Of a stretch of 64,000 nt of DNA, positions 17,903 to 49,105 are shown one piece after another. How positions within the stretch are numbered: position 1 is the first letter of the stretch; each line of letters starts with the position of its first letter. A program made the position numbers and the translations under genes. The stretch is from NCBI GenBank assembly GCA_017893485.1, contig CM030362.1, positions 265,765,675 to 265,829,674 of the forward strand, read 5' to 3'. The notes beneath the pieces are model-generated. The model saw only the letters and a list, made by a program, of their open reading frames with translations. It did no database searches and had not been told where the DNA came from. This DNA is from Hemerocallis citrina (taxonomy: Eukaryota > Streptophyta > Magnoliopsida > Asparagales > Asphodelaceae).

Positions 17903-18879
17903 TGTAACTCCCTATTCCAGTAGTACGTATTTTATTACGTGAATTTTTGTACTTCAATTTTTAGATCAGTTTTATTTTTCTCTTTGGACTCTTTATCTAA
18001 AGCCAGAATATTCTTCTGTTCAATTCCATAATTTTGTGATTTTTCGATTGGAGTTTAAATACAAATTCTAACCCCAATTATCCCTAATCAACATTTCTCC
18101 TATCTGCCTAACCCACTCCCGCTAATCACTCACATACGCCAAATTTCTCCCCCTCATTTTTCTCATTCTACGCCTAACTCCTCATTTTTTCACACACATG
18201 CCTAATTTTTCTACATCCATCTCTATCACCCCTTATTTTATACACATGCATGCATACATGCATGATTCACTCCATTCTTCCTTCTATATATACACACATA
18301 CACAAGCATACAGACCACCTCATTACCTTCTTCTCTTCCTTTGCCTTCTTCACACCCGAGAGCCCTTCTCCTTCTCTTCCTCTGCCTTCTTCACACCCGA
18401 GAGCTCAAGCAACACCCGACCTCCACTTTACCTTCCACCTTCGAGCCAACACTCCGCTTCTACGATCCTGCGAATCCCGAAAAATAACCCGACGCCGCGC
18501 GCCACCTTATTGTTGTCGTCGCTCATCGTTGCTACCGTTGCTAACTAGCTACCGTCTTGGGACCATTCTTACCGCCGTTGTGCCGCTGTCCGTTGTCGAC
18601 GTCGCTTCTTCTTTCCGTGGTTAACACCACCACCGAAATCGTCACGTTATAAGGCAAGTACCTTGTACACTCCTTTTGTTCTCGTACAAGCATTTTCCTT
18701 GGACTCGTGGCAAGTAGTCTAGTTATCATCATGTTTTATTGTCAAGTTCCATTCTAGTCACTCGTTCTATGCTATATCAACTCAAGAGTGAACCGTTAAC
18801 ACATTTCGAATCGTGTTATCGAATATCGAATATTCAACCTTACTATCTCTAAAATTTCTTGACCTTGCACTAAGAATTA

Positions 18880-19600
18880 GACCATGTTTCTGATACTGAA
18901 GTGAAGATTTTCTACGTGGAAATCGTAGCCCATCGAGTCTCGAATCCAGAACATCTTACGGTTTCTCAATCGGATGTATAGATTGTGAGATATCGCGATT
19001 TTAGTACTGGCATATCATGAATTTCTGAACCTGCACGAGATTACGAACGGTATCTTGTACTGAGAATTTGACTATGTTCCCGATACTGGATCGAAAAACT
19101 TTCTACATGAAAATTTTAGCCCTTCGAGTCTAGATATCCTAAACATATTACGTTTTCTCAATCGGATGTATAGATTGTAAGATATCGCGATTTTAGTACT
19201 AGCATATCATGAATTTCTGAACCTGCACGGGATTACGAACGGTATCTTGTACTGAGAATTTGACCATGTTCCCTATACTGGATCGAGAAACTTTCCCATG
19301 AAAATTGTAGCCCTTCGAGTCTAGATATCCGAAACATATTACGGTTTCTCAATCGGATGTATAGATTGTGAGATATCGCTATTTTAGTACTGGCATATCG
19401 TGAATTTCTGAACCTGCACGGGATTATTAACCGGTATCTTGTACTGAGAATTCGACCATGTTTCCTATACTGGATCGAAAAACTTTCTACATGAAAACCG
19501 TAGCCCTTCGAGTCTAGATATCCGAAACATATTATGGTTTCTCAATCCGATGTATAGATTGTGAGATATCGTAATTTTAGTATTGTGACTCTGAATTTTC
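18880..19600 (+). repeat. 192-bp tandem repeats inside LTR 1
   Basis: Four degenerate copies with the landmark CGGATGTATAGATTGTGAG (or its variant) at about 18971, 19163, 19354 and 19547. The equivalent block in LTR 2 (29650-30370) also has four copies; LTR 3 (43390-43730) has two. Confidence 0.85.
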
Positions 19601-20468
19601 AGAATGCGCGTGAAACATCGAAACCAGCGAAGAATAAATTTGTACGCATAACTAATGTCTCTAGAATGTATCGTGTGAATATGCGTTAGAACCGGAAGAG
19701 AATCTACTTTCTAGAATCTCTGACGGAATTGGATTTGCTTTTCTGTAACAACGGAAAAGTGAATTTGAATGCAGATATGTCAAGTTGTTTAAAAATTCAT
19801 CTTTACGTTTTTGCATATAAACCCATTACTTTTCATATTTAATGAACTGAGGGTATTATTGTTCTTGTAATAATAACTTGCATAGATATAATAGGTTGAT
19901 AGAATGTATTTTAAACTACTTGATAATTCTATAATAACTACTCTCGATACATGTACTCATTTTACGCCTCATGTCCATGATTACTGCCCTTGATATTTTT
20001 CTTGACTAAACTATTTGATTACACCGTTTTACTAGTCGTACCAACTGCATGTTCATAATTAATTATAAAAGAATAACAAGCCGGGGTTATAAGGGTACGG
20101 CTTAATAGTGGACAATATAGGGGAGTATACTCGGAAGGGGGCCCGTGTTTCCCGAAATTGTGATTCTTGATTCTTGATTCTTGATTACACAATTCTTGAT
20201 TACATAATTCTCGATTACATGATTCATGATTACATGTCTTGATACTATCACTGGAAGACCCGAGTACATAATCCTATAGAATTCACTACTTAAGTCTAAA
20301 CGTCACATGATTGATATGCACCGAACTTGTGGTATGCGACACAGGATTGTGTGCATTAGATAAGTTAATAAAATTGATAATCCCGAGATCTTCACTAAGC
20401 ATGATTCTTGATTACATGACTCTTCGTTACATGACTCTTGATTCTTGATTACATGATTCATGATTACA

Positions 20469-23400
20469 TGTAACACCTCAGATTTTAAAATACTGGAAAA
20501 TTATTCGTTTTTATATATTTTGTAAGGGTGAGAATTATTTTTAAGTGATAACTTATTTTATTTATTTTCAATATTGATATTGGTACGAATATTTGTGGTA
20601 GATTGGTATTATTGTTATATTAGAGTTAAGAGTTGGGATTTTATGTGAGGAAATATAGTTTATTTTATTTTATAATTTTGGGAAATTATTATAAGATAAT
20701 TTTATGTATTTGTCTTGTTCGTATTATTATTATAGAAAAGAGTTGGAGTTTAGTTGTAATATTTTGGATTTGGAGGGCTTATAGGTAATTATACCTTTCT
20801 ATTATTATTAAAATATATATTATATTACCAATATAACTCCTCCTTCATTTTAATTCCTTTTTCTTTCTTCTCCCTTCTTTCCTTCTTCTCCATTCCGATC
20901 AAAACCAGAGAAGCACCGAACCCAAATTTCGGCCCTCTCTCTCTCCTCAAATCCACTTGGATTCTCCGTCAAATCCTAATTAATTTAAGGGGCATGCTAA
21001 TTGAGGGGTTCTCTACATCGTGGAAGTGTCGGATTTTCGAAAGGATTTCGAAAAGGTATATCCTAACTTACTTTATTATATAAAATTAAGTTAGGTTAAT
21101 TTCTATGGAGTATGATTATTATGGTAGAGAGATTTAGAGATGTTGGAAGTGGTAGATTTGAGGAATTAGTAGAATGTTAGAGAAATTACAAGTTGTTAGT
21201 AAATTAGAGTTTTGGGTTTGTAAAAGAGAGTTATATATATGAGAATTATCTCTTATATGGTAGTAAAAATTGTAGTGAGCCATTAGAATAAAATGGGGAG
21301 TGGTGATTTTGGCATAAACTCGGATTATAGGGTTTATGAAATCGGGTAGGAAACTCGATCCTAATAATTGTAGAAAATGCATATGAGGGTGTGAAATATT
21401 ATGAAAATATTAATATAAATTTAGGATGATTTTTATAGGCTTAAGCTCAATTAAATTGAGTGAAATAGACTATAGGTGAAAAGTGCACGCCGGGTGTTCG
21501 ATGAAATGCCCGAGCGAGATTTAGGTGGGGATTTGATGGGTTCGGAGGTGTAGTTGAGTCTCATTATTATTATTAACCCTAATATGTGAGATTAGGAAAA
21601 AGATGATTAAAGAAATTAGAAAATATGAATTTTTCTTATTAGAAAGCCTCCGATCAATAAGGGAATGTTTGTATTGGGACCCGAATTCGAAGTCTATTGA
21701 TATAGCTCACCTATATATGTCATTTGTGACGCGTGGGTTAAGACGGATTCGAATTTGGAGGTTCGTAGGTCGAGTTTTGAGTTTTAAGCTAATCGGTCCT
21801 ATAATTTCCTATCTAGGTGGAAAAGGTCGAACTTCGACTGGCTATAGGACGGACGTGGAACATCGTTTGCTCGATCTGTCAGGTGAGTATGTGTATTATA
21901 AGTATTTTTATATTGTGGCCGAATTTCGTGGCCTTTTGATATATTTTGTGGGAGTTATGCCAAAAGTGGACTTTTATTGAAAATACGGATTTTTAAGGAT
22001 CCAAAATAGGTTTTTGAGATATGTGGTGAAAGTGACTATTTTAAGTATATAAAATCTATAATATGGATTATTGTGATGTGTTGAAGTATAAAAACTAATT
22101 ATATTAGCTTGTTTATGCACATTTTTATCCAATGCATATTTTGTGCATGTTTTAGGGCATATAGGCCCTTATAGGTAGTTATGATTACATGGAGCATGGT
22201 GTATGAGCTAGCATACTATAATTAGATATTATAAGATTTAATTAGAGGAAATAAGTGATTTTGGCCCCTTTTCTGGGAAATCTGTATGTGTGGTGTATAT
22301 TTGTGATACATATATAGATGATTATGATGTGTGATGCAATAGTTGATGAAATTAATAATTAGGTACACGTTTACATTGTAATTATGTTCGAAATAAATTA
22401 ATGGGTAATAATACGATATTATAACATGATGAAGTATACATTTTGACACTTTTACTATATGGAATAATTTAATGTAGTTCTTCTATTAATGTTATAACTG
22501 GGCATATGCCTATATATGATATAAGGAGGTAATGAATAACATGGTACCCTTAATGTGGGTTGTTATGGCAAAATAAATATCTTGGCACATTAGTATTATG
22601 CAATAATATGTTATGATGTTTTATGATGATATGAAGGTTAATATTGTGCTCACTGGATATGTATTAAATGGTAAGATAAAAGAAAAGATAAGATGGTGCG
22701 TGCTAATAAACTGTTTTTTATTCTTGTGATAAAATCAAGGTGGTGGCTATTATTAAATTCAAAAGTGTAGCGCTGTGGAATAAAGTAAGCTGTAATGATG
22801 AAATAAGTAATGTTAATAACAGATGGTTTTGTTGACCAGTACCTACAGCAATCCGGGGGGTTTGGGCTAGACCTCCTAACGCCCAAGGACCGGCTTGGGA
22901 ATAGTGGACCCAAACTATGTTTGGGGTAAGTGGATTTTATCGCCTAAGCTATCAGCTTGAGGCCCGGTTTTCCCTGGATGACAGCTGTCGCTAGGAAACA
23001 CCCTAGTGGGACTAGTGGTGAGTGTTTGCCTCGCTAGCTTCGGCTGGGAGGAAGGACCCTAGTGGGACTAGGGGTTAGTGGTTTTTTCCTCGATGACAGA
23101 TGTCACGAGGAAGCACCCTAGTGGGACTAGTGGTAAGTGTTTGCGTCGCTGGCTTCAGCTGGGAGGAAGTATCCTAGTGGGACTAGGGGTTAGTGGTTTT
23201 TTCCTCGATGACAGACGTCGCGAGGAGGCACCCTAGTGGGACTAGGAGTGCTGTGTTCCCTCGCTATTTCGGCTAGGAGGAAGACGTAGCCTCGGACGAG
23301 TAACACTCTGGGAGAGCATCGGACCGCGTGTTTACTGGGCTGTCGGCTTTCAGTATGTTGGGATACTGTGGCTCACTGGTCGACAAACTAATAAAATAAC

Positions 23401-25314
23401 TAAGTGTTAATAAAAATGTGAGGGTAAAGAAAGTGGAAAGTAAATTGTGAATTGTGGATGAGAAAGAAAGTAGTTGTGAATGAAGCAAATGTGAAAGAAA
23501 ATGAGTTATGAGTTAGTGTATGAAAAGAAGTGATAAATGCAGTACGTGGTTAATTTAAAATGATAGTAATAAAAGAGACATGTGTTAATATGATTAGTAC
23601 GAAGTAATTGTATTATGTGAGTGATTATTAAAGTAAAATACCGTGTGATATGAGTTGCACCTTGGAATTGTGTCAAGGAACTACCTGCCCGCTATTTCTG
23701 TGGAAATGGTGGGAAATACCTGCCTTGGCATAATTCGCAGGGTGAGTTGGTATACTAGTGGTAATGATTAATGGAAATGAGAAATTAAATAAAGTGAAGA
23801 TGATAAGTGATTTTAGTGAATTAATAACCAAGCTATCGGCTTGAGATGTGATGTGATATTACCCAAACTGTGTGTTTGGGGTGCGGTGATCATTACCCAA
23901 GCTATCGGCTATGGGGTGTGATATGTGGTGGCCCCAGATTGTGTTTGGGGATTAAGTGAAAATGATAATAAGATTTATTGTTTATAAGAAAAAAAGAAAT
24001 TACTAAAGTGGTGTAGTGAGTTATGAATGATCTATAAAACGTGTTTTGATGCAATAAGAATGTGCATTCGCGTAAGTGATACGGTGATGATGTGATGAAA
24101 TGCAAGTTAATTATAATGTGTAAGGAGAGGTTATGTTTGTGTTATATGACGTGAATGAATATGGCATTAAGGGAATGAATGCATATGTTTCTGATGTGAT
24201 ACATGATTTAATACAATAAAATAAATACTTGTGCTATGAAAGTGGTTATGAAAATGGTTAATGCAGAAAGTATGTTGTGTTATGAGTTTATATCCATATA
24301 AATGGTTATTAAAGAAAGATGTAATAACATCATGTAGTTATATTCATATAATGCTATTATGACGATACTTGTGGAAGAATGAATATTTGGGTTAGAGAAT
24401 TTAAATTGAAAAGTAATGGATTGTATGTGTATTCGTACTATTGCGAATGTAAAATAAGGATATATATATACATGAGGTAGATGTGAAGTATATAGTGAAA
24501 TGTGTGAAGTTATGGATAATTAAATAGTTGAATGCAGGATTGGCAAAGTATTTGATATATCGTCGTATTGATGATGCTGTTGTGTTCAGGATTCAGGTTG
24601 CATTATCTTAACTTGGTATTTGTAAGTTTAAATTATTTTCTTTATACTATTTTAATTTGTTATTAAATTAATACTCACACCAGAATGGCTGACCCCTTAG
24701 TGTTTGGGGGGTTAGGGGAGTCTGAGGACTACCCTAGATCCCTTACTGTTACAGGTTCTCATCAGTGCAGAGGTGAGGCGTGGATTGGTAGGATGAAGTT
24801 TTATTTTAAAAATTTGTACTAATTAGTTATGTGAATAGTAAAATTTATGATCTAAATTGTATTATGGATGTATAAGCATGTATATGATGATGATGAGTAT
24901 AGTGTGGGGTGGTGTGGTATGTTTGTGACCCGTACCCATCTCGTTGTGGAGTACCTGGCTCTGTGGTAGGTTTTACAAGGATTTTTCTAAATTTTTACCT
25001 CGTTTTTCAAAGAAATTTATGGTTTTTATTGAATATTTGATAATCCGTTATGAGATTGGCCCCCAGAGCATTATATTATATTGTCTGTGTGTTTCGGCTC
25101 ATTTTGGCTTGGGGAGTCCGTGAAATTATTGCGTGTATTGTGAGCTACGGAATTTTGAGCAGAATTCCGTAAGCTATTTGTGTTTCGAGGCAAAATTTAC
25201 AGGGGAAATTCTGCCAAAATTTTCCTTGAAATATAACTTTCTTAGTTTATGTTTAAAGTGACATAGAAATTGAAAGAATTGAATTTGGAGAAAAAAAAAT
25301 TTGGGGGTGTTACA
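20469..25314 (+). mobile_element. Solo LTR, 4.85 kb (family GH)
   Basis: Starts TGTAACACCTCAG and ends GGGGGTGTTACA, so the ends form a 9-bp inverted repeat. The TSD is TTACA at 20464-20468 and 25315-25319. LTR 2 shows the uninterrupted site. The plus orientation is chosen because a pyrimidine-rich leader (20830-21000), a splice-like donor AAAAG|GTATAT (21056) and acceptor TTACAG (24754) all point this way. A second copy of the family is at 36044-41825. No PBS or coding domain was found. Confidence 0.85.
22909..23950 (+). repeat. Hairpin-rich and 115-bp repeat block of family GH LTR
   Basis: Short dyads recur: CCCAAACTATGTTTGGG (22909-22925), CCTAAGCTATCAGCTTGAGG (about 22943), CCAAGCTATCGGCTTGAG (about 23828), CCCAAACTGTGTGTTTGGG (about 23863) and CCCCAGATTGTGTTTGGGG (about 23932). 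Between them lie about three copies of a 115-bp unit containing GATGACAG...CCCTAGTGGGACTAG (22977, 23091, 23206). Confidence 0.75.
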
Positions 25315-25974
25315 TTACATGACTCTTGATTACATGACTCTCGATTCTTGATTACATGATTATTGATTAACTGAGCCTAGGTTATCAATTGCTTATATCT
25401 TGAAGTCTAGAATACACTAGTTACAGTTATTACTTACATGATCATATTGTCCCAGTTCCTTGCTTACTTCCATATTATATTTGTACTTCTACTTCTTATT
25501 TCTTCCATGTTATATCTTGTTATATTATCCCTTTTTCTACTTGTTGCTACTTGCTGCCCGAAACTTGCTCTAACAGGAACTTTTCTATTTTTCTTTGAGT
25601 TAATAATTATACAGGTACTAATGGACCCGACGAGCAGACTCTCTAGACGATCGTTGCTGCTTCCTTACTACTTCATGTTGTTTTTCTTTCAGTCGCTATT
25701 TTATCTAGTTGTTATAGCGAACTGCTTATCATATTATGTTAATTCTGGCACCTTGTACTCTCGAGCATCTTGACCCGATGTTGATGTATTATCCAAATGA
25801 TGGTTATTCTATTTTCAGCTCATGTGATTATTATATTTGCCTGCGTGAATGTGTTATAAAGATCTTGTTGAGCTTATAATTGTACAGCTTATGGATGATG
25901 TATATCATTCGCTGGGCCTCAGTTGCGTGCCTGTATTTCCGTACAGTGGGAAGCGGGGCGTGACAAGTTTTTAG

Positions 25975-25987
25975 TGGTATCAGAGCC
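25975..25987 (+). other. Primer-binding site, tRNA-iMet type
   Basis: TGGTATCAGAGCC lies nine bases after LTR 1, complementary to the initiator tRNA-Met 3' end. It proves that the repeat ending at 25965 is a 5' LTR. Confidence 0.9.
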
Positions 25988-26099: not shown

Positions 26100-26830
26100 A
26101 TGATTCACGAAGGCTCTTCGACTTTTACACCCAGGGATGAACTATCGGAGATCGTCGCCATTCTCCAGGAGATGCAACGAATGATTGAGCTACAACAAGG
26201 GCAAAATGAATTGGTGAGAGCTAGTCTGGATAGGGTACAGGATGTCGCAAACTCCATTCAATAGGACTTGTTTGTGCACCAGCATAAGAGTTACACCACC
26301 ATGCTCGATATCCAGGAGCAGATCCATAGAGGGTGGAATGCCGTTCAGGGGGCATTACATCTGCTTACTATCGCACAGTCTACAGGTGGACCGATAAGGA
26401 GGCCAGTTCAGACCCTGACTACTAGAGCATCACCTTACTCATCGGCGACTCCGAAGAAGGACCAGAAGTACTATTATTGCCACTGAGTTGGACACATACG
26501 CAAGACCTGCTGGAAAGCCAACAACCTGTGTCTTGCATGCGGAGCGAATGATCACAAGGTTCGGGATTGCCCGAAGAGAAAGTGTGTCACACCAATAGGA
26601 GGATCAAATCCTAGTGGAGGACAGACTGGAGAGTGTAATCAGGCTCATAACCTGATTACAGAGGAGGCAGAGATCACCAAAGAAACAGTTACTGGTATAT
26701 TTCGATCTAGTCAAGCTTCAGGTCCTGCGTCGTTTGTTACCTTCTGTACATTGCATTCATTCTCGTCGATCAATCCTTTATTGAGTATCATACTAGTTAT
26801 TTCTTTCTACCCCTATTTTCTTGAATCTTC
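26100..26830 (+). pseudogene. Tekay-like gag with capsid deleted
   Basis: From ATG 26100 the frame reads MIHEGSSTFTPRDELSEI, a TAG follows near 26262, then LDIQEQIHRGWNAVQGAL and two zinc knuckles, the first with its terminal Cys codon region altered and the second CLACGANDHKVRDC (about 26530-26571). Compared with the gag at 32010-33160, the capsid core (about 500 bp) is missing between the N-terminus and the linker. The frame has further stops. The alignment fades after about 26820, where an LTR-like insert begins. Confidence 0.8.
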
Positions 26831-27234
26831 TGTTGAAGGAGAGTAGGAATATTGTTGGGCTAAATGGCAAACAATTGGAAACTTCTGTTATATTTTATTA
26901 TAACAACAAGAAGACTCTTCACTATTTTCTAAAACTGATATTACTACACCTTACAAATATACACTCTATTCTTTTTCTTCTTTTCTGCTTGTTTCTTGTT
27001 CTTGTCTTGGTTAATTTTTTTTCTTCTTCCTAAATCTCTCATTTATAGGAATGAGATATGAGTAACTGACAAATTCTTCATTTCCGTTTCTCCCATTTTT
27101 CTTTGCGGCACCAATCTTGCCACAATTTTTTAACATTGTTTGGTGGGTGGGGCCCACTTTACCAAATAAGTTTGATAACCAACATCTTCGTATTACCAAT
27201 CTCTTAATTCTGCTCAATTCATCGATCGCTATCA
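26831..27234 (-). repeat. LTR-like insertion, ends uncertain
   Basis: This segment is absent from the second internal region of the array. It starts TGTTGAAGGAGAG and ends GCTATCA, with the minus strand showing CCTATAAATGAGAG, a TATA-like box. It resembles a small solo LTR (copia-like size), but no convincing target-site duplication was found, so boundaries and class are tentative. Confidence 0.4.
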
Positions 27235-27262
27235 CGTGATATCAGCATCTAGAAACATCACC

Positions 27263-27285
27263 ATCAGAGTGGCGCAGCGGAAGCG
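27263..27285 (+). ncRNA. 5' fragment of initiator tRNA-Met
   Basis: The 23 bases starting ATCAGAGTGGCGCAGCGG match, as I remember it, the first 23 nt of plant initiator tRNA-Met (acceptor stem and D arm). The match then stops; no anticodon or T arm follows, so it is not a tRNA gene. Directly after it the sequence rejoins the protease region of the element. Confidence 0.7.
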
Positions 27286-27390
27286 CAGTAGAGTCCCTTA
27301 TTGATTCGTGGAATGAATATCAAAGCAAACTTTAACATCATCAACAACTCAAGGTTCGATGTTATATTTGGAATGGATAGGGCCGGGGCC
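27286..27390 (+). pseudogene. Retrotransposon protease remnant
   Basis: Aligns with 33410-33510 of the second internal region: the frame from 27313 reads MNIKANFNIINNSRFDVIFG, the counterpart of the segment ending [11 protein letters not shown]. The catalytic DSG part is missing and the similarity ends about 27390, where the LOG-bearing segment begins. Confidence 0.75.
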
Positions 27391-27419
27391 AAAGTGCAGA
27401 TACTGATCATAGGCCGGTT

Positions 27420-27743
27420 ATAGGGGGTGGTGAATTAATGAAGAAAAGACAAAAATAAGAAGAGAAATGAGGAGAGAAGTCAAAGAAAGAAGAAAGAAAA
27501 AGAGAAGAAAGAAAAAGAGAAAGAAAGAGGAAGAAGAAAGAGAGAGAAGTCGGAGAAGAAAGAGAGAAAAAGAGAGAAGTCGGAGAAGAAAGAGAGAGAG
27601 AGAGAAGCCAGGGAAGAAAGGGGTGAAGAGAAAGAAGAAGACAACTCGGGAGCAAGCTTCGGAGAAGAGAGAAAGTGAGAAGCCGATAGCAGAGATGAGA
27701 GCAAGAAAGAAAGAGAGAGTAGGAGCTCGGATTTTCTTGGCAA
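27420..27743 (+). repeat. Purine-rich GA/GAAA tract upstream of LOG copy
   Basis: About 300 bp almost entirely of A and G (GAAGAAAGAGAGA-type) in low-complexity form. It may be the 5' leader of the captured mRNA or an expanded repeat. The long open frames through it on both strands are compositional. Confidence 0.7.
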
Positions 27744-27815
27744 ATGGAAAGAAGAGATCAAGAATCGGTGGTAGGGATGAAGAGAAAATCGGTGCAAGAA
27801 GAAAGAGAAGTGGGT

Positions 27816-28475
27816 ATGAAGAAGTTTACTTCATCTTCATCATCTTCATCGAGATTGATCATGATTTGTGTATTTTGTGGCAGTAGCTCTGGCAAAAGAG
27901 CTAGCTACCAGGAAGCCGCGATCGAGCTCGGCAAGGAGCTTGTAGAAAGGAATATCAATCTCGTCTATGGTGGTGGGAGCATAGGATTAATGGGCTTAGT
28001 TTCCGACGCTGTTCGTGCTGGTGACCGACACGTTTTGGGAGTGATTCCCAAGTCGCTGATGCTGAAAGAGAATACTGGGGGAACTGTGGGAGATGTTAGA
28101 GTTGTCTCTAACATGCACGAGAGGAAGGCTTAAATGGCTCGTACTGCTGATGCTTTCATAGCCTTGCCCGGAGGTTATGGAACACTTGAGGAATTGTTCG
28201 AAGTGATCACTTGGGCTCAACTGGGGATCCACAACAAACCGGTAGGTCTTTTAAATGTTGATAGATATTACGACTCACTGCTATCCTTCATAGATTCTGC
28301 TATGGCTGAGGAGTTTATATCCAGTAAGGCCAGACGCATCTTGATTTCCGCTCCATCTCCTAAGGAGTTACTAAGAAAATTGGAGAAGTATGTGCCAGAG
28401 CGAGATAAGCTTGTAACTCAGCTGAACTGGGATGTTAGCAATGTTGGTGGTTCAGATTCTGAGCCTAGACATTAA
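27816..28475 (+). pseudogene. LOG-like: Intronless LOG (cytokinin riboside 5'-monophosphate phosphoribohydrolase) copy
   Basis: LOG enzymes release active cytokinin bases from their nucleotides in the cytosol. From ATG 27816 the frame encodes a Ser-rich leader, then [50 protein letters not shown], and the family signature [33 protein letters not shown], ending at TAA 28473-28475. That is 219 codons, near the usual full length, with the catalytic Arg (HERK) and Glu (PGGYGTLEE) codons present. One nonsense codon, TAA at 28131-28133 (codon 106), replaces the Glu expected in RKAEMAR; an ATG follows at once. No introns are present, although plant LOG genes have several, so this is an mRNA-derived copy. 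An in-frame ATG at 27744 would extend it upstream. Confidence 0.92.
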
Positions 28476-28660
28476 ATTGTTGAGTCATCCAGTTAAGGAT
28501 GCACAATTGTCTTTAGTTGTTTTTCGTGCCTTTGTACTCTTTGTTTCTTTTATCTTTTGTTGTACTCTCGATTGAAGAGTATTGCATTCTTCTTAGCTAT
28601 CCTATATCCAGCCTGAATAAATTTTGAGGATGAATTTTTTTTTTGTAAGGTGGGTAGGAT
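28476..28660 (+). other. LOG 3' UTR joined to retrotransposon 3' end
   Basis: The LOG trailer runs to about 28596 without a poly(A) tail. From CTATCCTATAT (about 28598) the sequence matches the 3' end of the second internal region (42340-42407), including the tract GTAAGGTGGGTAGG before the LTR, the probable polypurine primer. The junction is thus a precise gene/retrotransposon fusion. Confidence 0.85.
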
Positions 28661-31600
28661 TGTAACTCCCTATTCCAGTTGTATGTATTTTATTACGTGA
28701 ATTTTTGTACTTCAATTTTTAGATCAGTTTTATTTTTCTCTTTGGACTCTTTATCTAAAGCTAGAATATTCTTCTGATCAATTCCATATCAATTCCATAA
28801 TTTTGTGATTTTTCGATCGAAGTTTAAATACAAATTCTAACCCCAATTATCCCTAATCAACATTTCTCCTATCTGCCTAACCCACTCCCGCTAATCACTC
28901 ACATACGCCAAATTTCTCCCCCTCATTTTTCTCATTCTACGACTAACTCCTTCTCATTTTTCCACACATATGCCTAATTTTTCTACACCCATCTCTTTCA
29001 CCCCTTATTTTATACAGATGCATGCATACATGCATGATTCACTCCATTCTTCCTTCTATATATATACACACACACAAGCATATAGACCACCTCATTCCCT
29101 TCTTCTCTTCCTTTGCCTTCTTCACACTCGAGAGCCCTTCTCCTTCTCTTCCTCTGCCTTCTTCACACCCGAGAGCTCAAGCAACACCCGACCTCTACTT
29201 TACCTTCCACCTTCGAGCCAACGATTCCGCTTCTACGATCCCGCGAACCCCGAAAAACAACCCGATGCCGCGCCACCTTGTTGTTGTCGTCGCTCACCGT
29301 TGCTACCGTTGCTCGCTAGCTACCGTCTTGCTGTCATTCTTACTGTCGTTGTGCCGCCGTCTGTTATCGACGTCACTTCTTCTTTCCGTGGTTAACACCA
29401 CCACCGAAATCGTCACGTTATAAGGCAAGTACCTTGTACACTCTTTTTGTTCTCATACAAGCATTTTTCTAGGACTCGTGGCAAGTAGTCTAGTTATCAT
29501 CGTGTTTTATTATCGAGTTCCATTCTAGTCACTCGTTCTATGCTATATCAACTCCAGAGTGAACCGTTAACACATTTCGAATCGTGTTATCGAATATCGA
29601 ATATTCAACCTTACTATCTCTAAAATTTCTTGACCATTGCACTAAGAATTAGACCATGTTTCCGATACTGAAGTGAAGATTTTCTACGTGAAAATCGTAG
29701 CCCATCGAGTCCCGAATCCAGAACATCTTACGGTTTCTCAATCGGATATATAGATTGTGAGATAACGCGATTTTAGTACTGGCATATCATGAATTTCTGA
29801 ACCTGCACGGGATTACGAACGGTATCTTGTACTGAGAATTTGACCATATTTTCGATACTGGATCGAAAAACATTCTACATGAAAATTGTAGCCCTTCGAG
29901 TATAGATATCCATAACATATTACGGTTTCTCAATCGGATGTATAGATTGTGAGATATCGCGATTTTAGTACTGGCATATCATGAATTTCTGAACCTGCAC
30001 GGGATTACGAACGGTATCTTGTACTGAGAATTTGACCATGTTCCCTATACTGGATTGAAAAACTTTCTACATAAAAATTGTAGCCCTTCGAGTCTAGATA
30101 TCCGAAACATATTACGGTTTCTCAATCGGATGTATAGATTGTGAGATATCGCGATTTAGTTACTGGCATATCGTGAATTTCTGAACCTGCACGGGATTAT
30201 TAACCGGTATCTTGTACTGAGAATTTGACCATGTTCCCGGTAATGGATCGAAAAAATTTTCTACATGAAAACCGTAGCCCTTCGAGTCTAGATATCCGAA
30301 ACATATTATGTTTTCTCAATCCGATGTATAGACTGTGAGATATCGTAATTTTAGTATTGTGACTCTGAATTTTCAGAATGCGCGCGAAACATCGAAACTA
30401 GCGAAGAATAAATTTGTACGCATAACTACTGTCTCTAGAATGTATCGTGTGAATATGCGTTAGAACCGGAAGAGAGTCTACTTTCTATAATTTCTGACGG
30501 AATTGGATTTGCTTTTCTGTAACAACGGAAAAGTGAATTTGAATGCAGATATGTCAAGTTGTCTAAAAATTCATCTTTACGTTTTTGCATATAAACCCAT
30601 TACTTTTCATATTTAATGAGCTGAGTGTATTATTGTTCTTGTAATAATAACTTGCATAGATATAATAGGTTGATGGAATGTATTTTAAACTACTTGATAA
30701 TTCTATAATAACTACTCTCGATACATGTACTCGTTTTACGCCTCATGTCCATGATTACTGTCCTTGATATTTTTCTTGACTAAACTATTTAATTACACCA
30801 TTCCACTAGTCGTACCAACTGCATGTTCATAATTAATTATAAAAGAATAATAAGCCGGGGTTATAAGGGTACAGCTTAATAGTGGACAATATAGGGGAGT
30901 ATACTCGGAAGGGGGCCCGTGTTTTCCGAAATTGTGATTCTTGATTCTTGATTCTTGATTACACAATTTTTGATTACATAATTCTCGATTACTTGATTTA
31001 TGATTATATTTTTTGATACTATCACTGGAAGACCTGAGTACATAATCCTACAGAATTCACTACTTAAGTCTAAACGTCATATGATTGATATGCACCGAAC
31101 TTGTGGTATGGGACACAGGATTGTGTGCATTAGATAAGTTAATAAAACAGATAAACTCGAGATCTTCACTAAGCATGATTCTTGATTACATGACTCTTCG
31201 TTACACGACTCTTGATTCTTGATTACATGATTCATGATTACATGACTCTTGGTTACATGACTCTCGATCCTTGATTACATGATTATCGATTAACTGAGCC
31301 TAGGTTATCAATTGCTTATATCTTGAAGTCTAGAATACACTAGTTACAGTTATTACTTACATGATCATATTGTCCCAGTTCCTTGCTTACTTCCATATTG
31401 TATTTGCACCGTTACTTCTTGTTTCTTCCATGTTATATCTTGTTATATTACCCCTTTTACTGCTTGTTGCTACTTGCTGCCCGAAACTTGCTCTAACGGG
31501 AACTTTTCTATTTTTCTTTGAGTTAATAATTATACAGGTACTGATGGACGCGACGAGCAGACTCTCTAGGCGATCGTTGCTGCTTCCTTACTACTTCATG

Positions 31601-31888
31601 TTGTTTTTCTTTCAGTTGCTATTTTATCTAGTTATTATAGCAAACTGCTTATCATATTATTTTAATTCTGGCACCTTGTACTCCTCGGCATCTTGACCCG
31701 ATGTTGATGTATTAGCCAAATGATGGTTATTCTATTTTCAGCTCATGTGATTATTATATTTGCATACGTGAATGTGTTATAAAGATCTTGTTGAGCTTAT
31801 AATTGTACAACTTATGAATAATTTATATCATTCGCTCGGCCTCAGTTGCGTGCCTGTATTTCCGTATTGTGGGAAGCAGGGCGTGACA
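28661..31888 (+). repeat. LTR 2 of Tekay-like array (uninterrupted, 3,228 bp)
   Basis: TGTAACTCCC...GCAGGGCGTGACA. It is the cleanest copy of the family and serves both as 3' LTR of the LOG-bearing unit and 5' LTR of the gag-pol unit. Splice-like sites: AAG|GCAAGT at 29425 and ATACAG|GTACTGATGG at 31537. Confidence 0.93.
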
Positions 31889-31910: not shown

Positions 31911-32009
31911 TAGGCTCGAACCATGTTAAGCTCAACAAGTATGCACACCGCATTGATCACATGACCATTTAAATAACCCAGTTAATGACCTTACTCGATT
32001 TTGCTGAAT

Positions 32010-33160
32010 ATGATTCGCGGAGGATCTTCAACTTCTCGACCCAGAGATGCACCGTCGGAGAACGCTGCAGTTCTCCGAGCAATGCAGCGAATGATGGAGC
32101 TCCAGCGGTAACAAAACCAGTTGATGAGAGGCAGTTTAGAAATAGCCCAAGAAGCTGCCAACCGAGCTGGACCAATCCTAGGAGCATTACCACCAAGGCC
32201 TGGCACAGTGTCAGATTCATGAGACTGCGTCCGGAGAAGTTTGCAGGAACTGAGTCACCACTGGAAGCTGAGCAGTGGCTAATTAGGACTGAGCAGTTGC
32301 TGCATGCCGCACGAATCTCTGATGTGGACCGTGTGGATGTAGTCACCATTCAGCTGGCAGACATTGCCCACATCTGGTGGAAGGCGGAGACCGAAAGATT
32401 AGAGAAGCCTATCACTTGGGCCACCTTCGCCGAAAGCTTTTTAACTAAGTTCTTCCCTAGCGTTACTAAAGTAGAGATGGAGCGTCAGTTCATTTCTCTA
32501 ACCCAAGGAAAGCGGTCAGTTGATGAATATACCGCAGAGTTCACTCGTCTGAGTCGTTTTGCATCAGCCATGGTAGCAAATGATGAGGATAAGGCCCAAC
32601 AATTCTTGTTGGGCTTAGACTATGATATTCAGGATCGTCTAGCCGCCCACTAGCACCGTACCTACGCTGCCGTGCTTGATGCAGCAAGGATTCAAGAACA
32701 AACCCACCGGAAGAGGAATGCCGCTCAGCAGACAGTACAACCTGTTACTGTCATGAGGCCATCGGGAGGACCGATACGAAGGCCAGTTCAGACCCCAACG
32801 ATTAGAACACTACCCTACTCACCAGTTTCTATGAAGAAGAACCTGGTGTGTGACTGTTGCCACAAGATTGACCATGTACGAAGGGACTGTAGGGCTGCTA
32901 ACCGCCTGTGCCTTGCATGCGGAGCAAGCGACCACATGCTCCGAGATTGCCCGAGGAACAGGTATGGTGCATCAGCTGGAGAATCCAAACAACAGGGACC
33001 ACCAGCTCGTGGTCTGGGTAGGCCACCGCTTCCACCACAGAGGCAAGTTTATGATCAGAGGAACATAGCTCCTAGGGGAGGCCAGACTGGAGGATGTGGT
33101 CAGGCATACAATCTGACGGTAGAAGAGGCAAAGACTGTCGAAGGAGTAGTTGCAGGTATT
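32010..33160 (+). pseudogene. Tekay-like gag
   Basis: Starts at ATG 32010 (MIRGGSSTSRPRDAP). The capsid part includes RPEKFAGTESPLEAEQWL (about 32225-32280), IWWKAETERL, FFPSVTKVEMERQF and KRSVDEYTAEFTRLSRFA. Two zinc knuckles follow: [14 protein letters not shown] (about 32850-32891) and [14 protein letters not shown] (about 32910-32951). Broken by TAA near 32110, a frame change before 32215 and TAG at 32651-32653 in a HQHR-like context. It makes the particle protein in live relatives. Confidence 0.9.
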
Positions 33161-35020
33161 CTTACATTTGAGTCATATTCAGTTATTGCATTTTCTTTCA
33201 TTTTGCATTCTTCCTTATTCTTTATCTCATTATTAGGTATCATCCTAGTTCACTCCTTTCCTACCCATGTTCTCTTTGATTCCGGTGCTATCCATTCTTT
33301 TATTTCTGCTCAATTCGTTGGTCAGCATCATTTGCCCTGTGATGATATGCCAGTTGCTTGGAATATCACCACGGGAGAAGGTGTCATTGTTTGTTCTAAA
33401 GAATGCATGCAGAGTCCTTTACTGATCCATAGTATGGATTTTAAGGCAAACCTTATCGTCATCAACAACTCCGGGTTTGATGTCATACTTGGAATGGATT
33501 GGTTGGGAGCTACTCATGCCGTAATTGACTGCCGAAAGAAGAAGGTAGTGTTCCGAATTCCAGGTCGCCAGGAATTCGAGTTCCATGCTGGCAATACACC
33601 GTTTGGGCGTGTCAAGGAGGCTGGAATGCTGAAATCAATGTGCACTGATGGCAAAGTGGCACCTTTGATCGTACGGGATTTTCTAGATTTCTTTCCTGAT
33701 GAATTTCCTGGGTTGCCACCAGACCGCAATGTGGAGTTTAGTATCGAGATCCAACCAGGTACAACGCCAATATCGAAAAGTCCCTACAGGATGGCACCCG
33801 TGGAATTGGCCGAACTGAAGGTGCAAGTTCAAGAATTACTAGATAAGGGATTTGTCAGGCCGAGTGTTTCTCCTTGGGGAGCTCCTGTATTGTTTGTTAA
33901 GAAGAAGGATGGAAGTCGTAGGCTCTGCATCGATTATCGGGAACTAAACAACGTGACTGTGAAGAACCGGTACCCACTACCAAGGATTGACGACCTATTT
34001 GATCAACTTGGAGGTGCTTTTATTTTCTCGAAGTTGGATCTTCGTTCGGGGTACCATCAAGTTAGGGTGAAGACCAGGGATATTGAGAAGACAGCGTTTC
34101 GAACCTGATATGGTCATTATGAATTCCTTGTAATGCCATTCGGAGTTACCAATGCACTAGCTATTTTCATGAGTCTGATGAACATGGTGTTTTCACCATT
34201 TTTGGACAAGTTCGTAGTAGTATTCATCGATGACATCCTGGTATATTCTCGGAACAAGGAAGAGCATGCTAAGCATCTGAGGATCGCTCTACAGATGTTG
34301 AGGGAGAATCGCCTTTTTGGGAAGCTAAGTAAATGCGAGTTCTGGCTGGATCGTGTTGCATTTTTTGGCCACATCATCTCAGGAGCAGGAGTTTCAGTAG
34401 ACCCAGAGAAAGTTGTTGCTGTCAAGGAATGGCCAGTACCCAAGTCAGCGTCAGAAGTTCGTAGTTTTCTCGGACTAGCAGGCCATTATCGGAAGTTTGT
34501 TCAGGACTTTTCAAGGATTGTTGGACCACTGACATAACTGACGAGGAAGGATCAGAAGTTCGTATGGGATGATGCATGTGGTCAGGCCTTCGAGGAGTTG
34601 AAAGATCGACTGACATCAGCACCTGTGTTAACTGTACCAGATGGTTCAGGAGGATTCATGATTTATTGTGATGCATCTGGTAAAGGCTTGGGAGCGGTAC
34701 TGATGCAGCAAGGCAAAGTTGTTGCTTACGCATCCAGACAATTGAGGCCTCACGAGTAGAACTACCCTACTCATGATCTAGAGCTCGCATCTGTGATTTT
34801 TGCTTTGAAGCTATGGAGGCACTACTTGCTCGGTGATAGAGTTGAAATCTTCACTGACCATAAGAGCCTCAAGTATGTATTCACGCAGAAGGAGTTAAAC
34901 ATGAGGCAGAGGAGATGGCTGGAATTCATGGCAGACTATGACATCAACCTATAGTATCACCCGGGTAAAGTGAACACGGTACCAGATGCCCTGAGTAGGA
35001 GACCAGCAGCTATGTTTCTT
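33161..35020 (+). pseudogene. Tekay-like protease, reverse transcriptase and RNase H
   Basis: Protease: [15 protein letters not shown] (about 33280-33325), then [15 protein letters not shown]. Reverse transcriptase: [14 protein letters not shown] (about 33780), [20 protein letters not shown] (about 33880-33935), [15 protein letters not shown] (about 34030), VMPFGVTNA, and the catalytic box [10 protein letters not shown] (about 34225-34255). RNase H: MIYCDASGKGLGAVLMQQGK (about 34660), [18 protein letters not shown] and [10 protein letters not shown]. Stops interrupt at 34106-34108 (TGA), 34535-34537 (TAA), 34757-34759 (TAG) and 34952-34954 (TAG), each where C-to-T change in a CGA, CAA or CAG codon would explain it. 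The order PR-RT-RH-INT marks Ty3/gypsy. Confidence 0.94.
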
Positions 35021-36043
35021 ACTGAGCAGAAGATATTATTGGAAGAAATGAGGAGACTGAACTTGGAAGTGATTTTTCCAGGTTCAACACTAAAGTTTAT
35101 GATGTTACAGTTGCAGTCTTCATTAGTGGAGCAGATCAAAGAAGCCCAAGCAAGTGATGAGCAGTTACAGAAGTTCAGAAGTCAAGTCAAGGCAGGCTTA
35201 AGAACCGACTTGATTATTCATATAGATGGATCACTTCGCTTCAGTGCACGATTGTGTGTACCTAAGGGAGAAGTCAGACAAGAATTGCTCGCAGAAGCCC
35301 ACCATTCACCCTATTCCATTCATCCTGGAGACAAAGATGTACAGAGATCTGAAGACAACATTTTTGGTGGCACGGCATGAAGAGAGCAGTGGCGAAGTTT
35401 GTATCACAGTGTCTGATTTGCCAGTAAGTGAAAGCAGAGCATCAAAGGACCGCTGGACTGTTGCAGCCTCTCCAATTCCGGAGTGGAAATGGGAGAACAT
35501 CACCATGGACTTCGTGACGGCTCTTCCGAGGAGTCCCAAGGGTCATAATGCCATTTGGGTGATCGTTGATCGTTTGACGAAGAGTGCCCACTTCATACCT
35601 TTCAGAGTGGGTCAGTCCACAGAAAGTCTGGCCGAGAAGTACATACAGGAGATTGTACGGTTGCATGGAGTTCCTGTCAGTATTGTGTCGGATAGAGATA
35701 CGAGGTTCAGGTCCCAATTTTGGGAGAGCCTTCTGAGAAGTCTGGGAAGCATGTTGAGTTATAGTACAGCATTCCACCCTCAGACGGATGGACAATCTGA
35801 AAGGACGATTCAGACTCTGGAAGACATGTTGAGGTCTTGTGTTCTTCAATTTGGAGGTTCTTGGGAAGATCATCTGCACTTGGTTGAATTCTCGTACAAT
35901 AACAGTTACCAGGCAAGCCTCAAGGCGGCACCATTCGAGGCACTCTACGGTCGTAAGTGTAGATCACCAGTCTGTTGGGACGACATCGGTGAAAGAAAAC
36001 TTTTGGGACCAGAGTTGATTACGAAGTCAGTGGACGCAGTGTC
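35021..36043 (+). pseudogene. Tekay-like integrase, first part
   Basis: A zinc-binding region (HHSPYSIHPG ... CLIC-like, about 35300-35420, broken by a frameshift near 35380) leads into the catalytic core: WENITMDFVTALPRS (first Asp, about 35490-35530), IVSDRDTRFRSQFWE (second Asp, about 35680-35725) and FHPQTDGQSERTIQTLEDML (Glu, about 35770-35830). The core is cut at 36043 by the solo LTR at 36044-41825 and resumes at 41831. The triad itself is intact in the read sequence. Confidence 0.92.
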
Positions 36044-37790
36044 TGTAACGCCCCAAATTTTTTTTTTGACTCCAAACTCAATTCCTTCAATTTCTAAGTT
36101 ACTTTAAACATAAACTAAGAAAGTTATATTTCAGGGAAAATTTTGGCAGAGTTTTCCCTGTAAATTTTGCCCCGAAACACAGATAGCTTACGGAATTCTG
36201 CTCAAAATTCCGTAGCTCACAACACATACAATCATTTCACGGGCTCCCCAGGCCAAAATGAGCAGAAACATATAGGCAATATAATATAATGCTCTGGGGG
36301 CCAAACTCATAACGGATTATCAAATATCAATTAAAAACCATAAATTTCTTTGAAAACAAGGTAAAGTTTTTAGAAAAACCTTTGTAAAATCTACCACAGA
36401 GCCCGGTACACCACAACAAGATGGGTACAGGTCACAACCACCACATACTACTCCATACTATACTCACCGTCATCATTTACATGCATATACATCCATAATA
36501 CAATTTAAATCATAAACTCAACTATTCATAAAGCTAATTAGTACAAAAATTTTAAATTAAAACTTCACCCTACAATCTGCGCCTCACCTCTGCACTGATG
36601 AGAACCTGTAACAGTAGGAGATCTAGGGTCGTCCTCGGACTCCCCTAACCCCCCAAACACTAAGGGGTTAGCCATTTCTGGTGTGAGTATAATTCACTAA
36701 TCTAATAAATAACCCAAACTATATAACGAATATAAATTAAACTTACAAATATCAAGGTAAAAAGATTCAATCTGAATCTGAACATTAAAGCATCAAGAAT
36801 ACCACTTTGTATCAAGTACTCGTCAAATCTGCATCCGTCTACCTATATCCATAACTTCACACCCTTCGCTAAATGCATCTTAATATATGACTGCATAAAT
36901 ATAAATACATATATACACAACTCGTTCAATCTATACTCAATTACAAAGCAACACACTAATTCACATTCCATTTCTTTGTATTTTGAAATCCCCAACACAA
37001 ATAATCATCATTTCATAATTACCACCACCTCCACATTTCTTTATTTTCATTACTAATCACATATGGTCTCTGCCACTTTTCTTCATACTTATCCAACCAC
37101 ATATTTCATTTACCATTCCTTTTCATTTATACACACAACTCATTCTTTCCTACTTATCTCGTAACATTACTTCACATCCACTCCACTTTAAATCATCTTA
37201 TTCTTTTTCATCGTATATCCTCACATGCATTCATTTTAATCGCATAACCTTCCCCACATTTAATCTCATAATAACACAATTACCCCACGTATCATCACAT
37301 TATAATTTACCCTTTACTTTCTTTTCATTCCAATTTCATCCTATAGCTTATTTTCACCCTCATCTTACGAATTACTTTACTTTTATTCCCAACTTACAAT
37401 GCAACTAGCATATCAACAACTCACTCATTCATCCTGAACATTGTGCCTAGGCAGGTAGTTCCCACTATTTCCTCCGAAATAGCAGGCAGGTAGTTCCTAG
37501 TCACAATTTCAAGGCACACCAACTTATAACACAGCATACTTTCTTTAATAACCATTTTCATTACCAACCTCATAATACAGGTATTGGTCTTATTGTATTA
37601 TATCACGTGTCACATCATAAACATAAGCATCTCTTCTCATAATATCATATTAATTCATGTCTTATAACACAAAACATAACATCTCAATACACCTGGCACT
37701 TTACTCGCATTTCATCACATCATTAACATACCACTTATAGCACAAATGTCTTTGACTTCACTTTCATTCTTATCACAATATACTCCATAT

Positions 37791-38610
37791 CCCAAACATA
37801 GTTTGGGCAATCACATACCAAACCCCAAAGCTGATAGCTTGGGTAATACTCACCGCACCCCAAACACACAGTCTGGGTAATATCACATCACATCTCAAGC
37901 CAAATGCCAATATATATACATATATATCTCCCGTAGTATATTCACATCTCCCATAATATAAATAATCTCCGAAATATATATCATATCATCAATATCTTTA
38001 TATATATATTCTTTCAATACACATATACACCTTTATATTTACTCCTTTTCAGTGCCCACACTACTGACCTCCTCATACAACACAGGGATCTCTGTGCCTC
38101 CCATCCAGTACATTTCAATCCCGCTAACCCACCACATCACCCAGATCCAGGCGTCCTAAGCATCTACCATTTGTGGGCTGGATTGAAAGTACGGTTGCGC
38201 ACTTGTCCAACCAAGACTAAAGCCAAAAGGCTAGTCAAAAGTAAAATATAACACGTGGATCGATGCTCACACAGAGTCTTACACGTCTGAGGCTACGTCT
38301 TCCTCCTGGCCCTATACCAGCGAGGGAAACTCCTGATCCCCAAACATAGTTGGGGCAATATATAACTCCTGATCCCCAAATATAAAGTTTATAAATATAA
38401 CTCCTGTTCCCGGGTGTATCCCGGGCCTGTGGGGTCTAGCCCAAACCCCGGGAGATTGTGCGGCACTGCAATATTTAATTCTCCTTTATATACATATACA
38501 TATCTCCTTTATTATATACTCCTTTACAATATAACTCATGTTCCCCAAATATAAAATTTGGGGCAATATCATTATATATATAACTCCTGTTCCCCAAATA
38601 TAAATTGGGG
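37791..38610 (-). repeat. Hairpin block of family GH LTR (second copy)
   Basis: Dyads equivalent to those at 22909-23950: CCCAAACATAGTTTGGG (37791-37807), CCAAAGCTGATAGCTTGGG (about 37824), CCCCAAACATAGTTGGGG (38338-38355), CCCCAAATATAAATTGGGG (38592-38610) and others, among CTCCTTTATAAYATA phrases. Confidence 0.75.
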
Positions 38611-40173
38611 CAATATATAACTCCTTTATAAAATAACTCCTTTAATAAAATATCTCCACATATTCATTTATAATATATCTCCGTTATAATATTTCTCCAC
38701 ACATATATATCTCTCCTTTATAATATAACTCCATATATGAATATATCTCCTGTATAACATAACTTCTTTACAACATATCACTGTATATCTCCTTTACAGT
38801 ATAACTCCTTTATAGAATAACTCATTTACAATATAACTCCTTTATACTCTAATTTCACCATTATAACATAACATGAATGCATATACTCCGTTAAATTCAT
38901 AAACATGCGCATACCATTAATCTCATCGATTATCGTATAAATTCTCCGTTATCACCCACACGGCACACACACATCACGCAAATTTTCACATCACTTTATC
39001 ACACCAAACTTTCAATTTATCACACACCTATTACACACACACCACCTCATTCACTTCGTCCTATCATCGCATCACAATATCACATCGTACACACCATACT
39101 TTCCATCTTATCACAGCAGTCATGAGACCACACATCACATATACAGATACATATCTCTGATCTTTACAACCCCGAAGCATATAAATATTTATCTACAAGC
39201 ATCAACACACTCCCATACATATATATACTAATTTATTACACTTCATAATTTACTCCATATTATACTTATGAATTTTTTCTATATTCAGTATACTTCACAC
39301 ATCACACACCAAGCCATATTTTAAAATTAATCACAGCACATTATGCACATAGAATAAAAGATCATACTCACATAGCATCCCGCGAAGACTCGAAGCGCCA
39401 TCTCGCCATCCTGCATCCAAAGTCGCCAACATATCCTATTATCAAATTTCAACGCAATTAAGGCTCAAATCATTCAAACCAGTCACGGGAAAACAATAAT
39501 ACTAATTATCTTACTATCACACAGACGTTTCATTGAACGTCTGGGATACACGTGCGATGCACGTAATAATCTAATGTCTAAAAGATTTTTATTTCCCAAA
39601 CAATTACTAGAACCATTCCCAATTTATTCTAATGGCTAAACTAAAATTTCTACTATCATGCGGAAGATAATTTATATATATAAAATTCTCGTTTCCAAAT
39701 CCAAAACCCTAATTTTTAGCAACTTGCAAAATTCCCAATAATTTGCTAATCTCTTGCCTCTACAATGCCCAACACCTCCTAATCTCCCTACCATAACCAT
39801 TCTACTCAAAATAAATTAACCACACTAAATTTTATACAAAAATAAAATCTAGGGTTTACCTTTTCGAAATCCTTTCGAAAAACGGATACCGCCACGACGT
39901 AGAGGACCCTTCAATTAGCCATCCCCTTGAATTAATTTAAAAATAATGGGAAAATGGATCGGATTTGGGAAGGGGAAAAGGCCGGCCGATGGGTTCGGTC
40001 ACGGTCGGGAAGAAAAGAAGGAAAGAAAGAAGGAGGAAGAAAAGGGATTTTTTTGGAAAATAAATAAATAAATAAGTATTAATATAATGGTTGTAAAGTA
40101 ATATTTACATATAAACCCCTCATCAACAAAATATTACAAATAAACCCTAGACTCTACACTTTAGTAATACTCT

Positions 40174-41581: not shown

Positions 41582-41830
41582 AATACTCTCAATACAAAAT
41601 GCATAAAATTATCTCAAAACAACCATCCAAAATTACAAAATAACAATGAACAATATTTCTTCACATGAAACTCTAACTCATAACTCCAATACACCAATAA
41701 TACCAATTTACCACAATTATCCATACCAATATCAATATTTAAATAAAATACATCAAAAATAATTTTCACCACTCAAAATATATAAAGACAGACATTTTCG
41801 GTATTTTAAAAATTCGAGGTGTTCAGTGTC

Positions 41831-42333
41831 TCAGATCAGGAAACACCTGAGGGCAGCTCAAGATAGGCAAAGGAAATGGGCGGACACTCACCGCAGACCC
41901 TTGGAGTTTGAGGCAGGTAATCATGTGTTCTTCAAAGTATCACCATCAAGGGGCATCATCCGTTTCGGGGGCGGAGGCAAGCTTAGTCCCCGATTCATTG
42001 GCCCATTCGATATTGTGGAACAAGTGGGCAAGGTCGCTTACAGGCTCGCGCTACAACCAGTGTTATCAGGAGTTCATGACGTATTCCATGTTTCCTAACT
42101 CAGGAATTACATCAGAGATGTCAACCATATCATCGACTACTCAGAGTTATCTGTACGTCCAGACTTATCACGTGAAGCTCAACCAATTTTTATCTTGGAC
42201 AGGCGTGAGAAAGTGCTGAAGAATAAAGCCATCAAACTTGTACGAGTCTCTTGGAATCCTCACTCGCCAGGTGAGTCGACATGGGAGCTCGAGGAAGAAA
42301 TCCAGAAGAAGTACCCCCATATCTTCGAGTAGG
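41831..42333 (+). pseudogene. Tekay-like integrase C-terminus and chromodomain
   Basis: Resumes the integrase at VSQIRKHLRAAQDRQRKWAD, with FEAGNHVFFKVSPSRG, GKLSPRFIGPFDIVEQVG and VFHVS, then TAA near 42097 where a Gln (CAA) is expected. The tail, in the next open stretch, reads VLKNKAIKLVRVSWNPH and STWELEEEIQKKYPHIF (about 42210-42330), the shortened chromodomain typical of Del/Tekay chromoviruses, thought to direct insertion to heterochromatin. A stop (TAG) ends it at about 42333. Confidence 0.88.
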
Positions 42334-42407
42334 TGTCTTGCTTTTCTATCCTATATCTCACCGAATAAATTTCGAGGATGAAATTTTTTTTGTAAGGTGG
42401 GTAGGAT

Positions 42408-49006: not shown

Positions 49007-49015
49007 ATTATTATA

Positions 49016-49065
<50 letters not shown>

Positions 49066-49067
49066 CA

Positions 49068-49105
<38 letters not shown>

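Follow-up and report, generated by a model that had tools for sequence, protein, structure and literature searches.

A complete gene for a predicted cytokinin-activating enzyme of the LOG type is the main coding cargo of an abundant, recently inserted family of LTR retrotransposons in Hemerocallis citrina. The family is non-autonomous and derived from the Ty3/gypsy chromovirus type, and the function of its LOG protein has been selected in the transposing lineages. LTR-captured genes are often fragments or decaying copies. We analysed a stretch of 64,000 nucleotides of contig CM030362.1 (the window), in which the initial annotation had placed a LOG gene inside an LTR element. This element is real and represents one copy of a large family, with LTRs at 17903-25965 (interrupted) and 28661-31888. 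We consider it very probable that an LTR element captured the mRNA of a LOG7-type gene of the host, that the resulting element would have been moved in trans and that its LOG protein was selected; we are less confident that the benefit came from cytokinin. The family makes it testable whether a retrotransposon can gain by altering host development, beyond copying itself.

The LTRs and other element parts described here lie on the forward strand, except for one insertion without an assigned strand. The 5' LTR of the LOG element (LTR-A) starts with TGTAAC after a flank ending in GAGAC, and its first part (17903-20470) is 94.8% identical to 28658-31244. An alignment break and the flanking bases mark a later insertion at 20471-25313, which has the ends TGTAAC...GTTACA and TTACA on each side. 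The remainder of LTR-A occupies 25314-25965 and ends with GTGACA. The primer binding site reported earlier was found as a PBS-like TGGTATCAGAGC at 25975-25986, with the same site at the equivalent place after LTR-B; we take it to be complementary to initiator tRNA-Met. A gag remnant follows (26200-26845), with ∼66-72% identity to the gag region of the downstream element where the two can be aligned. It is absent in the short form of the family, in which the gag deletion junction lies at ∼26197|26962 in window coordinates. The next part of the element is a non-coding internal stretch (26962-27281), from which a probe (26965-27275) was present in 20/20 fetched loci. The probed part contains long pyrimidine runs and diverges less than the LOG synonymous sites; it is a candidate packaging or splicing signal. 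An aspartyl protease remnant, already named in the initial annotation, extends over 27290-27415: homology is detectable at 27290-27381, a weaker likeness can be seen by eye up to ∼27415, and the downstream element carries an RVP_2 domain.

The captured cDNA begins with a GA-rich sequence that is probably its 5' UTR (27416-27743) and whose junction with the element is common to 20/20 loci. It continues with the intronless frame of a predicted LOG7-like cytokinin riboside 5'-monophosphate phosphoribohydrolase (27744-28475, based on domain, PDB and exon alignments) and closes with the LOG 3' UTR (28476-28598), which lacks a poly(A) and served as a probe independent of the open reading frame. As had been described, the element's own 3' end resumes at ∼28598. 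This segment (28599-28660) matches ∼42346-42407 of the downstream element, has its polypurine tract AAGGTGGGTAGGA at 28647-28659 and is followed by the LTR start at 28661. LTR-B (28661-31888) is shared: it closes the LOG element as its 3' LTR and opens, as the 5' LTR, a second, gag-pol element at 31985-42407, which is interrupted at ∼36044-41823. In the second element we detected Retrotrans_gag, RVP_2, RVT_1 and SH3_Tf2-1, with rve and chromo under their cut-offs. This second element, which had gone unnoticed in the initial annotation together with the sharing of LTR-B, ends in a third LTR (LTR-C, 42408 to ∼45159) with a truncated 3' end. The segment directly adjoining the truncated end (45165-46801) has inverted terminal repeats of ∼137 bp, and a transposon insertion there may have removed the end of LTR-C. 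Other repeats in the window include ∼192-bp tandem repeats inside the LTR at 29637-30360, also found in LTR-A and LTR-C, and separate direct-repeat arrays at 22968-23283, 49007-49901, 52351-54153 and 58001-58659.

The window copy of the LOG gene is broken. Its frame has no introns and aligns without gaps to residues 7-214 of Arabidopsis LOG3 (PDB 2A33), with an E-value of 1.9e-90 when the stop is translated as X, and there is no frameshift; the intronless frame reported earlier is thus borne out. However, the initial annotation had called the gene full-length and had counted 219 open codons from the ATG at 27816, and that stretch includes an in-frame TAA at 28131-28133. The two halves of the frame match PF03641 at 1.6e-6 and 2.3e-31, well beyond what chance would give. 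At the codon of the stop, 74 of the other 75 copies tabulated encode E and one encodes K. Without read-through no full-length protein can be made from the window copy, so an intact gene at this locus is ruled out and the copy is a dead member of the family, intact copies of which exist at other loci. The native start is probably the ATG at 27744 rather than 27816, since the DNA from 27744 can be aligned, albeit with gaps, to the N-terminal part of the host's own LOG gene.

To identify the protein we can use the LOG of a single insertion, L028, which matches PF03641 at 1.2e-46 and TIGR00730 at 9.4e-58; against the bacterial equivalog model NF058542 it scores 128.5 bits, under the cut-off of 300. 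The motif PGGxGTxxE, which we take to mark the LOG/lysine-decarboxylase-like fold family, is well kept across copies: R103 and E125 are each conserved in 75/76, E126 in 75/75 with a residue at that position and G119 in 72/76. Judged from these matches, the captured LOG belongs to this fold family and is a predicted cytokinin riboside 5'-monophosphate phosphoribohydrolase.

All genome searches were run on the genome from which the window comes (3.78 Gb in 701 contigs). For PF03641 we obtained 1025 first-look candidates. Of these 150 were scored, and all 150 were above the Pfam curated cut-off, 146 of them without a stop in the match; the scored matches occur on each of the 11 large contigs as well as on some of the small contigs. 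Two DNA probes from the LOG 3' UTR gave 759 and 748 first-look candidates, of which 40 were scored for each probe. These first-look counts (748-1025) are rough bounds on family size only. LOG units occur at hundreds of places or more in the genome, many of them intact and some young. In this species, so many intronless LOG sequences would distort the counting of gene-family members and misdirect work on hormone genetics.

We fetched 20 loci of 10 kb from the top PF03641 matches, two of which overlap within one tandem array. In all 20 loci the LOG sequence lies between LTRs of the family together with the PBS and the polypurine tract. Both capture-junction probes align through in 20/20 loci with 77-90% identity. 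The short form LTR-PBS-LOG-PPT-LTR, which has no gag, accounts for 16 of the 20, and the other four retain gag remnants; four short copies compared side by side have the identical gag deletion junction. Only gag and protease remnants were found between the PBS and LOG, so the LOG element has no pol of its own. Where both outer flanks were visible, an exact 5-bp target site duplication (TSD) was present (8/8 loci); the window composite ends in a truncated LTR. The recurrence of the LTR-LOG-LTR unit with TSDs at many loci rules out chance, and likewise an assembly artefact joining the segments, for the family as a whole.

Some of these insertions are recent. Across ten measured LTR pairs the divergence ranges from 0 to 2.4%, and the least diverged are those of L013 (0/2866), L022 (2/2807), L028 (2/2839) and L026 (3/2847). 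L013 and L022 lie within tandem arrays, so that the identity of their LTRs may come from recent duplication; the units of the arrays L010-L013 are 4.7-4.8 kb long and 99.8-99.98% identical. L026 and L028, by contrast, each represent a single insertion that has a TSD and near-identical LTRs, and hence LOG units have moved recently. For a view independent of open reading frames we scored codons 17-219 in 60 fetched places. The frame was open in 37/60 (29/38 and 8/22 in the two samples; L048, with a compensating insertion at the boundary of the codon range, was counted as open) and broken in 23/60.

The initial annotation had expected a donor LOG gene with introns in the host. The matches of an Asparagus LOG protein tile to this genome include four intron-bearing LOG genes, namely H1 (L089 and L094, contig 1), H2 (L090 and L095, contig 2), L091 and L093. 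We resolved H1 into seven exons, which H2 matches exon by exon, the last one included, and all six H1 intron positions are closed in the captured copy. In a protein tree eight captured copies form one clade (100/100), which is grouped with H1 and H2 (98/93), and this larger group adjoins Asparagus LOG (84/83). The grouping suggests that the captured LOG was most likely derived from the host's own lineage. The distance between the captured LOG and H1/H2 is 0.73-0.88 at synonymous sites (dN 0.07-0.09), which means that the capture happened long ago, unless a closer donor escaped the search. The N-termini are serine-rich in both cases, with MKKPSSSS in H1 and H2 resembling MKKFTSSSS in the captured copy. 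At the cDNA edge (∼28598) we found neither an A run nor a poly(A), and no duplication was seen at the cDNA edges. The six missing introns, the missing poly(A) and the junctions common to 20/20 loci point to a single event in which a Ty3/gypsy chromovirus-type element took up the mRNA, in agreement with the earlier preference for capture by the LTR element over LINE-type retroposition. We also observed an old, decayed intronless LOG copy (L096:1-1001), whose C-terminal tail is intermediate between those of the host LOG and the element LOG. Its match to the LOG element extends only up to window position 28589, beside the 3' capture junction. This copy may have been made from the donor mRNA at an early stage.

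As the first 20 loci were the best PF03641 matches, we repeated the selection test on copies picked by 3' UTR similarity alone. The two probes listed 80 places, of which 60 were fetched and 53 analysed. The 20 unfetched places comprise the window, two already sampled (L009 and L028) and 17 left aside; from the fetched places we dropped five that were rearranged (L030, L041, L073, L076 and L082), one in which no LOG was found (L065) and one identical to the place of L026 (L075). For the 53 copies pN/pS falls with divergence. It is 1.01-1.02 for near-identical pairs (pS<0.02), a small bin of 36 pairs with a wide bootstrap interval of 0.5-2.1, then 0.45 and 0.35 in the intermediate pS bins, and finally 0.244 for deep pairs (pS≥0.12; 983 pairs; codon bootstrap 0.18-0.32). 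Taken apart, the two UTR samples give 0.31 and 0.19 for deep pairs. A neutral-looking set of near-identical copies beside constrained old lineages is the pattern one would predict if source elements are under selection and most insertions decay afterwards. Pairs of broken copies also show a low value (0.29, 107 pairs), because they have inherited constrained sequence. As a proxy for change after insertion we also considered nearest-neighbour pairs (pN/pS 0.366) and set them aside, since in this sample the nearest neighbour of a copy is mostly not a close one; change after insertion was instead read from the near-identical bin and from singletons.

The sharing of variants among copies gives the same picture. 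For the 53 UTR copies and the window copy, with 34 multi-change variants left out, the ratio of replacement to synonymous variants (N/S) is 2.65 for variants in one copy, 1.80 in 2-3 copies, 1.05 in 4-9 copies and 0.19 in at least 10 copies, where 5 replacement variants stand against 27 synonymous ones. All seven stop variants are singletons. A Fisher test on variant sharing gives 1.2e-9, a value to be read with the fact that recombination makes the variants non-independent. The LOG copies are indeed mosaics of one another, as expected of recombining retroelements.

Three technical explanations of the low ratios could be ruled out. Biased sampling does not account for them, as the ORF-independent copies give a low value too. 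Mutation bias is not the cause either, as a neutral simulation with the mutation spectrum of the 10 LTR pairs yields a pN/pS of 0.70-0.77. Nor is there a frame artefact: among 19 domain-picked copies, N/S for variants in at least 3 copies is 0.29 in the LOG frame, compared to 4.1 and 12.3 in the other two frames and 1.3-6.0 in non-coding and LTR stretches.

The main rival to selection at the level of the element is a benefit to the host, in which some LOG retrocopies would be extra cytokinin-activating genes of the plant and, by coincidence, also source copies. Development is known to depend on LOG dosage, many copies are intact, and selection on the host would leave a pattern like that of selection on the element. 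However, the near-identical copies show no constraint (pN/pS 1.02, interval 0.5-2.1), and ten of the domain-picked copies, whose LTRs or units are 98.9-100% identical, span diverged LOG lineages with a pooled pN/pS of 0.16, which fits selection linked to transposition better than the domestication of a few loci. We regard host-level selection as unlikely, though it is the alternative to be taken most seriously.

A second possibility is that the constraint arose in a host gene, through separate captures of LOG or repeated exchange with host LOG mRNA. Besides the mosaic structure of the LOG sequences between lineages, the divergence of the flanks speaks for it. For the same pairs the synonymous divergence of LOG is 0.16, compared to 0.06-0.08 in the non-coding flanks. 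Most of the LTR has diverged roughly a third as much as LOG (0.05), and only the first LTR part reaches a similar level (0.13-0.15). At fourfold sites outside CpG the divergence is 0.155, so CpG decay is not the explanation of the excess. Constraint on the flanks, perhaps because they serve in packaging or regulation, or their homogenisation would account for the difference; otherwise LOG has varied faster for some other cause, and a second source of synonymous variation in LOG may be one option. Against separate captures or exchange, both junctions are common to 20/20 loci, and in the tree all eight copies fall into a single clade that excludes H1 and H2 (100/100). Furthermore, none of 76 copies comes within 10% of H1, the sole host LOG compared, in any stretch of ∼96 bases, which rules out exchange with H1. 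Overall we find this explanation quite improbable.

It is less probable still that the open frame alone was needed, for example against nonsense-mediated decay of the element RNA, with the LOG protein itself irrelevant. Such a need would account for the stop variants never being shared, but replacement changes have been removed as well (5 vs 27 synonymous in at least 10 copies) and the motif residues are kept. The least credible alternative is an ordinary processed pseudogene made by LINE-type retroposition of LOG mRNA into the element, which agrees with the intronless cDNA and is contradicted by the absence of a poly(A) or a duplication at the cDNA edges, by the same junctions and LTR-to-LTR unit in 20/20 loci and by 5-bp duplications at the LTR ends in 8/8 testable loci, although an original LINE step before capture by the LTR element is possible.

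In the reading that we prefer, a Ty3/gypsy chromovirus-type element would have acquired the spliced mRNA of a host LOG7-type gene by reverse transcription, with a template switch in the particle as the probable mechanism. The LOG cDNA would have taken the place of all element sequence between the protease and a point close to the end of the integrase/chromodomain region. Having no reverse transcriptase (RT) or integrase of its own, the LOG element would then have been moved in trans by related gag-pol elements, and a later deletion of gag would have produced the short LTR-PBS-LOG-PPT-LTR form. The initial annotation had stated that the unit could have been mobilised in trans, and as far as the sequence goes this holds for pol-less LOG units with 5-bp TSDs (8/8 testable loci). 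The LOG element and the downstream gag-pol element have LTRs, PBS and polypurine end in common, and from these shared ends we infer mobilisation by a gag-pol helper. The downstream element is likely the type of this helper. Its RT stretch gave 6448 first-look candidates in the genome, and all 40 that were scored showed 97-100% identity.

With less confidence we suggest that the LOG protein would activate cytokinin locally in the cells that transcribe the element, which might promote division or meristem fate and thereby improve the odds of new insertions reaching the germ line. That a family without genes of its own lives by manipulating host cytokinin through LOG, and that LOG is kept under selection for this reason, is a tentative proposal to which we give somewhat less than even weight. 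If it were true, a selfish element would spread via host development without encoding replication machinery. How the protein would be translated is a separate matter: the leader of L028 contains 19 ATGs in the 1066 bases between the PBS and the ORF, which makes translation from unspliced RNA doubtful and would call for splicing or some other special form of the message.

Gypsy elements that contain a LOG domain have been described in print before. The relevant section of PMC9289625 lists a YgdH (LOG) domain in gypsy consensuses of Citrus sinensis and Citrus clementina and, with a looser filter, of Populus trichocarpa, and cites Steinbauerova et al. 2011. These elements resemble ours in that a LOG-type domain lies inside plant Ty3/gypsy LTR retrotransposons. 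In that section the mention is a domain listing for RT-collected consensuses and gives no donor, junction, selection or age; unlike those consensuses, the Hemerocallis LOG element has no pol and mostly no gag. In the open-licence literature that we searched, we came across no retrotransposon family that carries LOG alone and lacks both gag and pol. The captured LOG is grouped with the host's own LOG genes beside Asparagus LOG, which suggests that its capture was likely separate from that of the Citrus and Populus elements, known here by description only.

Other captures offer partial parallels. According to PMC9289625, 25-kb gypsy elements of Phalaenopsis orchids carry AlkB in an additional ORF, and the enzyme is active in vitro; there, too, a host-like enzyme domain has been kept through several rounds of retrotransposition. 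LOG replaces the genes of its element, unlike the added AlkB ORF, and its product is a predicted enzyme. Bs1 of maize, as described in PMC13317346, which also reviews the capture mechanisms of LTR elements, likewise holds host gene sequence inside an LTR element. It comprises segments of three genes, none of them a full-length ORF, whereas the LOG family is large and has one complete coding region. Host genes between LTRs were surveyed in rice and sorghum, where PMC3726574 gives a mean Ka/Ks of 0.92 for rice and 0.60 for sorghum pairs, with some genes under purifying selection. That survey covers many different captured genes and reports mean values, whereas our case concerns one gene and, apparently, one capture in a large family, with a deep-pair pN/pS of 0.24 set against a simulated neutral expectation. 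Finally, we noted three predicted proteins of Xanthoceras sorbifolium (P0001, P0002 and P0003), each with two LOG-like domain stretches and 55-60% identity to the captured LOG. Xanthoceras belongs to the Sapindales like Citrus, and these proteins are possibly LOG-bearing elements annotated as genes.
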